Assembly (NCBI GenBank): GCA_017847835.1
Contig: JAGASH010000005.1
Coordinates: 248,001 to 312,000 of the forward strand
Direction of reading: 5' to 3'
Source: Oscillospiraceae bacterium
GTDB taxonomy: Bacteria > Bacillota > Clostridia > Oscillospirales > Ruminococcaceae
Length of the DNA stretch: 64,000 nucleotides
Shown piece by piece: positions 43,083 to 63,032 of the stretch (positions are counted from its first letter, which is position 1; every line of letters begins with the position of its first letter). Position numbers and translations under genes: made by a program. The notes under the pieces were generated by a model. It worked only from the letters and a program-made list of their open reading frames with translations. It was not told the origin of the DNA and searched no databases.

Positions 43083-44048
43083 TCAGTTTAAAAGTCCCTT
43101 GCGCTTTTCGGCAAGAATATCGTCCTTGAAAACCCTTGCGCCCGTGCTTTTTACAGCCTTAATCAGCTCGTTGAAGATATCCTCGGGCAAATCCTCGTTT
43201 TTCATCATCTTTTCAACAGCCGTGATGTAGCTCTGCCGCATAAACTGCGCGTCCTTCAGGCGAACTCTCGTTTTCACGCGTTCACCCGTATCGCCGTTTG
43301 TCATCATTCTGATATCGTTGTCGAGAATTTCCATAAGCTGCAAAACGCTGTCCTTACGGGAATTCTTGAAAATATACTTGTTATAGACAGACGCACGGCA
43401 CATCGCTCCGGCATTCAGCTCGGACGGGATTGTGTCGTAAACCGACATAAGCGTGAATACAAAGTCCTCGAAAGACGCAAATCTTCCGTTTGAACCCATC
43501 GAAAGAGTGAGACTGTCTGCGCTCGCGAAAGCAAATCTGACAGCGCAGTCCAAAGCGGTTTTCTTGCCATTCATCGGGCAAAAGTCAACGGGCACGGTCA
43601 CGTCGTTCTTCACACGCAGAACATAAGCCGACGCTTCCGCGGGGGTGAACATTTCATAGCTTCCGCAAAGCCTTACAAGCGCGATTTCCCCGTCAACCTG
43701 AGCCTGCGCAAAACGAACGGCGCGTCCGGGAAGGCTGTCCATAACGGGAAGCTCCAGCATAAGCGGCACATCTGTCGAAATTTTCTTCTTCAAATCTGGA
43801 AAGGTTATCAACACATAGTCAAAGTCAAACACCTCTGTCAGCCGCAGAAACATCGGGTCAACCAGCCTGAAAATATACCCGACGCCTTTAGGCAGCTCGC
43901 GCAGCTTCATAACAGTGCGGAAATCCAGCTCCACATATTTCACGCCCGCAGCCGCAAGCATTTCGATGTAGTTGTAGATATCTTCGCTTTTGGCATTATC
44001 GAAAAGAGTGTTTGTGCAAAGACTGTTATCGGTGATAACCGTTTTCAT
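43083..44048 (-). CDS. TIM-barrel protein related to HMGL/isopropylmalate-synthase family
   Basis: A 321-residue soluble protein I can place only loosely. The N-terminus (VITDNSLCTNTLFDNAKSED) and AAAGVKYVELDF resemble the start of the HMG-CoA lyase/2-isopropylmalate synthase barrel, where DTTLRDG is expected. Here the metal-binding Asp and Arg motif is altered (TDNSLC), and the HxH motif is not evident, so catalysis of that type is uncertain. A C-terminal helical region (about 225-321) follows. The ATG at 44048 is preferred (AAAGGA upstream); a TTG at 44054 is an alternative. In a series of co-directional envelope-related genes. Confidence 0.55.
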   Translation of the reverse strand: MKTVITDNSLCTNTLFDNAKSEDIYNYIEMLAAAGVKYVELDFRTVMKLRELPKGVGYIFRLVDPMFLRLTEVFDFDYVLITFPDLKKKISTDVPLMLELPVMDSLPGRAVRFAQAQVDGEIALVRLCGSYEMFTPAEASAYVLRVKNDVTVPVDFCPMNGKKTALDCAVRFAFASADSLTLSMGSNGRFASFEDFVFTLMSVYDTIPSELNAGAMCRASVYNKYIFKNSRKDSVLQLMEILDNDIRMMTNGDTGERVKTRVRLKDAQFMRQSYITAVEKMMKNEDLPEDIFNELIKAVKSTGARVFKDDILAEKRKGLLN

Positions 44049-44086
44049 TTTCAAAATCCTTTCAAAAAGAAGCGAGAACTCATTTC

Positions 44087-44680
44087 TCAGCTTATTGCAA
44101 TTCCACGGACAAAATTCCTGCGGTAATAATCGGTATCAATGCTGACGTTCCAGACCTTTGTTTCCCCGTTATGCGTAATACACGCAACCATTTCTCCGCC
44201 GCCGACGTAAATTCCGCCGAAACTTACCTCGTCCTTGCCGTCGTCGGAAAAGAACACCAAGTCACCCGCGCAGAGATTTTCATAGGTCTGTCTTGCGCCC
44301 CACTCCGACTGCGCGAAAGTGCCTCTCGGGCAAGTCAGAAAGCCGTTTTTCCGCATTACATAATATATAAATCCCGAATTGTCAAAACCCTCGGGCGACG
44401 CTCCGTTTAACGCATACGGTGTGTTTATCAGCGAATATGCCATAGCGACAATATTTTTCGCAACCTCGCTGCCGGCGCCGTCACCGGGACGCCGATTTAT
44501 ATTGCTGTCGGCAGGACTGCGGGAATTATCGCTTTCATACGGCACGCTTGCGCTTACCGACGAACTGTGAAATTCGGATTGTCCTCCGCCGTCGGACGGC
44601 TGGCTGAAAACTATCACCAGAGCGATTACTCCGAGCGCTGCCAGAACCACGCCGACAATTATCAAAATATTACTTTTCAT
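44087..44680 (-). CDS. Membrane-anchored NlpC/P60-like protein lacking catalytic residues
   Basis: 197 residues: one N-terminal helix (about 5-26), a Ser/Asp-rich linker, and an NlpC/P60 domain (about 72-197). The fold motifs are clear: INTPYALNGASPEGFD, AQSEWG, CAGDLVFFS and GGIYVGGGEMV. In active members the nucleophile lies in FDCSG; here it is FDNSG with Asn101 (codon AAT). The catalytic His of SHVGIY is also missing (SFGGIY). So this is a peptidoglycan-hydrolase pseudoenzyme, perhaps a binding or regulatory protein. Start ATG 44680. It follows the FapA-like gene by 98 nt. Confidence 0.85.
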   Translation of the reverse strand: MKSNILIIVGVVLAALGVIALVIVFSQPSDGGGQSEFHSSSVSASVPYESDNSRSPADSNINRRPGDGAGSEVAKNIVAMAYSLINTPYALNGASPEGFDNSGFIYYVMRKNGFLTCPRGTFAQSEWGARQTYENLCAGDLVFFSDDGKDEVSFGGIYVGGGEMVACITHNGETKVWNVSIDTDYYRRNFVRGIAIS

Positions 44681-44778
44681 TTATTCTCCCGGCTGATAAA
44701 AAAGTTGTATTATCAAGCTTTGTATAATCGTATGAAAAACAACCGACGAAATATTTCATTTTTCCGAAAAAAGCGCTT

Positions 44779-61354: not shown

Positions 61355-61383
61355 TTGCAAAATTTGTCTGAATGTGGTATAAT
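61355..61383 (+). promoter_or_regulatory. extended -10 promoter of the lipoprotein pair
   Basis: TTGCAA (61355-61360), 17-nt spacer ending TGTGG, TATAAT (61378-61383), 46 nt before the lipoprotein start. Confidence 0.8.
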
Positions 61384-61429
61384 TTTGAAGAAAACAAAAA
61401 TATGGAAAAAAAGGAACGGTGAGTTTTTT

Positions 61430-61969
61430 ATGAAAAAGTTTATTGCATTAGCGGCATTTGCTGCAATTCTGCTCTGCGGCTGCGCGAACGATGAGGGAAC
61501 AATCTCAACTTCCCGCTTCAGCAGCTGCACAAGTTCTTCGAGCGTTGACCCGCTTGTGTCCTCGATTATGAGCGATTTGGATATTTCCATTCCCGAGGGC
61601 GGCACAACTTCCTTTTCTCACTCGGGTACGGTGGCAAAATCCACCGTCAACAGAAAAGCCACCATCGCTGCCGAGAAAACCTATGTTGTCAAGGAAAATA
61701 AGCAGCTGATTTTTGAGGATGGCGGCGAGCTCACGATTGAAGGAAAGTTTGACGCTCAGGAGGGCTGCAAAATCACTATTAAAAATGGCGGCGCGCTTAT
61801 CCTCAACGGCGAGAGCAGTCTTAACAGCGACCTCTATATTGAAGAAGGCGGAAAGCTGATTGTCGGCGAAAACGGCAAAGTTTCGGGCAGCGGCACAATT
61901 TACACATTCAATAACGACTGCATCGAGAACAGTCAAAATATCGAAACAAGCATCAAAATAACAGGTTAA
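61430..61969 (+). CDS. Lipoprotein with beta-solenoid-like repeat domain
   Basis: 179-residue secreted lipoprotein: basic MKK start, hydrophobic signal, lipobox LLCGC with the acylated Cys. A Ser/Thr-rich linker follows, then a domain (about 80-165) of short Gly-rich beta repeats (DGGELTIEGKFDA, NGGALILNGESSL, EGGKLIVGENGKVSG), as in right-handed beta-helices. The same domain occurs in the next gene, and 29 nt are identical (61847-61875 and 62370-62398). Probably surface bound; function unknown. Start ATG 61430 with GGTGAG upstream. Confidence 0.78.
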   Translation: MKKFIALAAFAAILLCGCANDEGTISTSRFSSCTSSSSVDPLVSSIMSDLDISIPEGGTTSFSHSGTVAKSTVNRKATIAAEKTYVVKENKQLIFEDGGELTIEGKFDAQEGCKITIKNGGALILNGESSLNSDLYIEEGGKLIVGENGKVSGSGTIYTFNNDCIENSQNIETSIKITG

Positions 61970-61988
61970 TTTACATCACGGGGGAAAT

Positions 61989-63032
61989 ATGAAACACACA
62001 AGACTTTGGGGGATTTCTGCTGCGGCAATTCTGCTCTGCGGCTGCACAAGCACACAGCTGAATAATATGGACAGCTCGTCGGGCGTCAGCACTTCCCTGA
62101 CAAGCTCTTCGGACAATTCAAGCGGCGAGGTTATTTATTCTTCGTCAGTAATAGAAGCTGAGTACACGGTATCCGAGAAACATTCGATTTCGCAAGCCGA
62201 TTCACTTGATGTTTTCAAAGAAGATACGATGTACATAGCAAATGGCGGAGAGCTCACGGTTGACGGGAAAATGACCTCCGAAAAAGGCGGCAAAATCATT
62301 ATTCAAAACGGCGGTGTGCTTATTCTCAACAACGAAAGTCAGCTTGAATGCGACTTGACGATTGAAAAGGGCGGAAAGCTGATTGTCGGCGAAAACGGAA
62401 AGGTTTCGGGCGGTGGCTCGATTACCGTGAAAAATTCGTTTGATGAAATCGAGTGCAGCGGAAGCGTAACTGCGAAGATTATCCCGCCGGCGCCCGTCAC
62501 TGAAAACGGCGTGACAACCGTAGGCGGTGTGCTTCTCGTCAACAAAAAGTACTCTATCCCGTCGGATTTCGGCTCGGAGCTGATTACCGATGACGAAGCC
62601 GGAACAGGTCTTATCCGTGACGAGGCTTATGACGCGCTCTGCGAAATGAGAGAGGCTTCTGGTTACACGATGTCAATCGTATCGGGCTTCAGAAGCTATC
62701 GCACGCAAACCGCAATTTACAACAGAAATGTCGCGAATTACGGTGAGGAAGAAGCGAACACCTGGTCTGCAAAGCCCGGTGAAAGCGAGCACCAGACAGG
62801 TCTTGCAATCGATATTTCCTCTCTTGAACAGAGCTACGGCGATACCGAAGAGGGAAAGTGGCTTGCGGAAAACTGCCACAAATTCGGCTTTATAATCCGC
62901 TTCCAACAGGGCAAAGAGCCGATTACCGGCTACATATATGAGCCGTGGCACGTCCGCTATCTCGGAAAAAGCACCGCAACGCTGGTTTATGACAGCGGTC
63001 TTGCGCTCGAAGAATTTCTCGGAGTGAATTGA
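61989..63032 (+). CDS. Lipoprotein with repeat domain and VanY D,D-carboxypeptidase
   Basis: 347-residue lipoprotein: signal with lipobox LLCGC, Ser-rich linker, repeat domain (about 80-155; NGGVLILNNESQL, KGGKLIVGENGKVSG) paralogous to the upstream protein, and a C-terminal VanY/peptidase M15B domain (about 200-347). The zinc site is recognisable: SGFRSYRTQ, GESEHQTGLAIDI (His and Asp) and EPWHVRYLG (His). It should cleave the terminal D-Ala from peptidoglycan stems. Whether it affects glycopeptide resistance cannot be said. 19 nt after the first lipoprotein. A terminator follows. Confidence 0.9.
   Translation: MKHTRLWGISAAAILLCGCTSTQLNNMDSSSGVSTSLTSSSDNSSGEVIYSSSVIEAEYTVSEKHSISQADSLDVFKEDTMYIANGGELTVDGKMTSEKGGKIIIQNGGVLILNNESQLECDLTIEKGGKLIVGENGKVSGGGSITVKNSFDEIECSGSVTAKIIPPAPVTENGVTTVGGVLLVNKKYSIPSDFGSELITDDEAGTGLIRDEAYDALCEMREASGYTMSIVSGFRSYRTQTAIYNRNVANYGEEEANTWSAKPGESEHQTGLAIDISSLEQSYGDTEEGKWLAENCHKFGFIIRFQQGKEPITGYIYEPWHVRYLGKSTATLVYDSGLALEEFLGVN

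Follow-up and report, generated by a model that had tools for sequence, protein, structure and literature searches.

The NlpC/P60 protein encoded on the minus strand of the window (the whole stretch of DNA analysed, 64,000 nucleotides) has lost its catalytic nucleophile and both partner positions, and comparison with its relatives strongly supports the view that it is a maintained pseudoenzyme, both ancient and selected. The role favoured here, with moderate confidence, is that of a membrane-tethered, non-catalytic NlpC/P60 protein that would bind peptidoglycan or a partner, possibly in the spore envelope. The coordinates of the gene and of the positions discussed are collected in Table 1.

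Table 1. Features of the Cys-less NlpC/P60 gene and its product, in window coordinates.
Feature	Position	Strand	Basis
NlpC/P60 protein CDS without catalytic Cys, 197 aa	44087..44680	(-)	ORF and translation; PF00877; orthologues
Ribosome-binding site GGGAG, just 5′ of ATG	44686..44690	(-)	Sequence reading
Lone N-terminal membrane helix, about residues 4-26	44603..44671	(-)	Hydropathy; without lipobox
Ser/Asp/Pro/Gly-rich linker, residues 27-70	44471..44602	(-)	Sequence; evolves fast
NlpC/P60 domain, residues 71-197	44090..44470	(-)	Pfam; AF2; VIA-align
Asn101, replacing catalytic Cys (codon AAT)	44378..44380	(-)	Family columns
Phe154, replacing catalytic His (codon TTC)	44219..44221	(-)	Family columns
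Ala166, replacing third triad residue (His)	44183..44185	(-)	Family columns
Cys117 of CPR motif, conserved in f1 branch only	44330..44332	(-)	Family columns

The reading frame is intact and has a sound ribosome-binding site before its ATG, as the first-pass annotation had it. The same annotation called the protein anchored, which agrees with the single N-terminal membrane helix (mean Kyte-Doolittle hydropathy of 3.3 over 19 residues); no lipobox was found in the N-terminus. Same-genus members with a readable N-terminus likewise carry one strongly hydrophobic helix and no lipobox, and many Cys-less members outside the genus have a lipobox instead of the helix. Tethering is therefore general in the Cys-less family, given that relatives bear one device or the other. 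The domain is presumably tethered by the low-complexity linker to the outer face of the membrane, with a predicted extracytoplasmic orientation.

PF00877 matches residues 87-191 (E=1.1e-14; score 54.7 bits, cut-off 23) and is the sole Pfam family above its cut-off in the protein, which contains no LytM (M23) domain. The AF2 model of residues 66-197 reached a pLDDT of 94.2, using an alignment of 38 rows in which 34 canonical domains taken from viral contigs accompanied the window's domain and three orthologues lacking the Cys; an earlier model from four sequences (pLDDT 52.7) was discarded. The best structural and sequence match is 7cfl, the catalytic domain of the Clostridioides difficile autolysin Acd24020 (34% identity; Z 22.0 and 1.3 Å by VIA-align), which is also picked by Foldseek, and the RipD structure 4jxb is matched with Z 17.3. 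The papain-like fold of NlpC/P60 proteins is thus retained. Asn101 opens helix 36-46 of the model, which in active relatives is opened by the catalytic Cys; given the predominance of canonical sequences in the alignment, the model speaks for the fold rather than for the fine geometry of the pocket.

The DNA and the 7cfl alignment both show the two substitutions named in the first-pass annotation, namely GFDNSGF instead of GFDCSGF and SFGGIY instead of SHVGIY. Its statement that both catalytic residues are replaced holds for the Cys and the His and is an undercount, as the third position is also lost. In a comparison of family columns between 58 Cys-less and 45 canonical domains, the nucleophile column is Cys in 45/45 canonical domains (100%) and Asn in 78-100% of the Cys-less groups, the rest being Ser. 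The His column is invariant (100%) in the canonical set and is occupied by Phe in 97-100% of the Cys-less clade. In the third triad column, 89% of the canonical set has His, and the Cys-less clade mostly has Ala, Gly, Ser or Tyr. The active-site Tyr89 is retained in the window's protein; 91% of the orthologues have Phe at this position. Neither the catalytic Cys nor the catalytic His of an active peptidase of family C40 is present. A relocated or altered active site with some residual activity, for instance through Asn/Ser at position 101 or through Cys117, could be proposed on the grounds that these residues are conserved, but we regard it as very improbable: almost all members carry Phe where the His would be, and Cys117, found in 100% of the window's genus and 94% of the other f1 members, is absent from the other families of the order. 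No conserved His was found in any column of the Cys-less domains, the highest value being 26%, which excludes a relocated Cys-His pair; the pseudoenzyme reading thus survives the check for an alternative pair.

The orthologue search covered 61 genomes, 37 of them from the same genus, including the window's own, and exactly one match per genome was found in 33 of these 37. The nucleophile motif is FDNSGF in 26 of the 33 orthologues and FDSSGF in the other 7, and FDCSG occurs in none, so that no close homologue with an intact Cys and His was found among them. Asn or Ser at position 101 is therefore universal in the genus (33/33), and the Phe in place of His is kept nearly throughout. A Cys in 0/33 same-genus orthologues against 45/45 canonical relatives is not attributable to chance. 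Pairwise NG86 estimates for twelve species pairs gave a dN/dS of 0.05-0.2 for the domain and, where computable, of 0.14-0.59 for the N-terminal part and linker; these ratios are approximate, since several dS values exceed 1. Judging from them, the NlpC/P60 domain of the Cys-less protein is under strong purifying selection. That an ordinary NlpC/P60 hydrolase was recently inactivated, or that its sequence contains an error, has a negligible probability: no point in its support was found, and it is refuted by the lack of the Cys in all 33 orthologues, which come from separate assemblies, by the presence of members in five families and by the purifying selection. The earlier suggestion of a maintained pseudoenzyme is thus borne out by substitutions fixed among orthologues, selective constraint, membership of a single clade and the lack of another Cys-His pair.

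When 394 genomes of the order were searched by pattern and by profile, further Cys-less members were identified in family f1 (in the sister genus g28 and also in g33) and in families f4, f14, f17 and f20, so that such proteins have so far been found in five families of the order. In a sample of 291 genomes from the class, FDC is present in all of the 28 best matches outside the family whose sequence was read, so that no Cys-less protein is among them. No viral relatives of the Cys-less family were found. In a maximum-likelihood tree with the canonical proteins, a branch with support of 100/96 sets the Cys-less proteins apart on one side, although the tree is unrooted and built on few columns, and the bootstrap had yet to settle. 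This arrangement is consistent with one old loss of the catalytic Cys. The proteins of the window's genus cluster with a sister-genus protein that adjoins ypeB (L153; support 96/80). In L139 and L140, at about 9.2-11.0 kb, two adjoining Cys-less paralogues, both with FDNSGL, lie beside a large glycoside hydrolase family 2 gene, and a GH5 gene is also present near the pair in L140.

PF00877 is found once in the window's genome (99.6% complete), in the Cys-less protein itself. The first-pass annotation proposed that the protein might regulate a real hydrolase; an active NlpC/P60 paralogue is ruled out as its target, since the genome has none, and the possible targets are hydrolases of other classes or a partner resembling YpeB. 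The claim that the gene belongs to an envelope-related series with FapA and CorC also stands in part. The order HAD, FapA, Cys-less gene, 323-aa protein, HAD, CNNM is found in part of the genus, but FapA is missing at the locus in some same-genus lineages, the Cys-less gene is located elsewhere in several species, and its neighbours in the sister genus are a quite different set; FapA and CorC are therefore weak clues. No spore signature was found among the genus neighbours FapA, HAD and CNNM. The 323-aa protein directly downstream (window 43083-44054, minus strand) is syntenic in many relatives and has no Pfam or NCBIfam match. Elsewhere in the window (61355-63032, plus strand) are two adjacent lipoprotein-like genes, the second of which encodes a VanY-type D-Ala-D-Ala carboxypeptidase (PF02557); both have weak AIDA repeat matches below cut-off.

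A less probable explanation is that the domain does not bind peptidoglycan and works purely through contacts with other proteins, as an adaptor that would switch on, hold back or position a hydrolase of a different class in the manner of degenerate LytM proteins. Regulators such as DipM act in this way (PMC10336132), YpeB itself is thought to keep SleB inactive (PMC13393411), ypeB adjoins the gene in the sister genus, and a bulky Phe takes the place of the pocket His. Against such an adaptor, the genus as a whole shows no conserved partner at the window's locus, and the genome has no active NlpC/P60 paralogue.

The Cys-less gene is present in 42/71 genomes of the sister genus (E up to 1e-30), and all members read there have the FDN motif. 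It lies directly downstream of ypeB and on the same strand in 33 of these 42, YpeB being identified by TIGR02889 above cut-off in one scanned example, with several of the matches among the 33 below that cut-off. YpeB also occurs without the Cys-less gene in about 25 genomes of the sister genus. In G715, G717 and G720, ypeB survives only as fragments, with the Cys-less gene that follows it retained. Two genomes, L141 (9084-9869, minus strand) and L143 (9477-10217, plus strand), have a second Cys-less paralogue, which is situated between a SipL/SpoIVA pair and a gene pair that includes an NAGPA-type gene. The window's genus is apparently spore-forming: SpoIVA is above cut-off in 21/22 same-genus genomes and is also present in the window's own. 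As SpoIVA occurs in 350/394 genomes of the order, its presence in the window's genome is not diagnostic, and enrichment of the Cys-less gene among spore formers is likewise uninformative. Neither YpeB nor a SleB/CwlJ-type Hydrolase_2 domain above cut-off was found in the 22 same-genus genomes (0/22 each), so that the ypeB link is at best inherited from relatives. A sigma-E-like promoter, AAATATT-15-CATACGAT, lying some 75-45 bases before the ATG (minus strand) and common to only one close relative (12/14 positions), was dropped because the other relatives mostly match at 9-11/14, which looks like unconserved background. The position of the nearest relatives outside the genus directly behind ypeB suggests a possible connection with the spore envelope, at the level of cortex or germination, and a spore role is tentative. 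More speculatively, this family of catalytically dead, tethered NlpC/P60 proteins, specific to the order, might take part in assembling the spore cortex or in germination, working with YpeB in one genus and outlasting the loss of YpeB and SleB in the window's genus as its only NlpC/P60 protein.

Under the favoured reading of a tethered binding protein, the membrane helix and flexible linker would hold the intact NlpC/P60 fold outside the membrane. In its pocket, where stem peptides of peptidoglycan were formerly cut, hydrolysis is proposed to be impossible because the nucleophile and both partner positions are replaced, mostly by fixed residues, and the sequence predicts no catalytic activity. 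By analogy, the dead domain may still bind a ligand. Most likely, a peptide- or peptidoglycan-binding role would be kept, as a tether, sensor or adaptor, in a process possibly linked to the spore envelope; a binding or adaptor function of some kind is likely.

Peptidoglycan hydrolase pseudoenzymes are already known from mycobacteria (RipD) and proteobacteria (degenerate LytM). The Cys-less NlpC/P60 family adds a separate example from uncultured clostridia; it is ancient, widely conserved and sharply marked by the exchanges Cys to Asn and His to Phe. Domain-based naming in databases would label these proteins hydrolases, an identity that is not likely. The position of relatives behind ypeB offers a lead, open to testing, on how bacteria lacking SleB and YpeB germinate. 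No paper joining NlpC, "pseudoenzyme" and peptidoglycan was found among the open-licence papers searched.

Among known systems, 7cfl differs from the window's protein in being an autolysin domain with intact FDCSG and SHVGIY motifs. DipM shares a catalytically dead hydrolase domain, which in DipM is kept as an envelope regulator able to control autolysins (PMC10336132), but this domain belongs to the unrelated M23/LytM family. YpeB, which is expressed with SleB (PMC13393411), is linked to the Cys-less family by gene order in the sister genus; the window's protein is homologous to neither YpeB nor SleB, and its genus lacks both. RipD of Mycobacterium tuberculosis (Rv1566c) has Ala83-Ser132-Glu144 in its active site, is inactive and binds peptidoglycan (PMC12067865). 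Like RipD, the window's protein combines replaced catalytic residues with a retained NlpC/P60 fold, as seen in the family columns, the AF2 model and VIA-align. It differs in the replacements themselves (Asn/Phe/Ala) and in having an N-terminal membrane helix and linker where RipD has C-terminal pentapeptide repeats; it scores 31.4 bits against the RipD family NF033743 (cut-off 215) and is closer in sequence to canonical enzymes than to RipD. Judged by sequence, the Cys-less family is thus none of RipD, DipM or YpeB, and RipD is the direct precedent for the window's protein.
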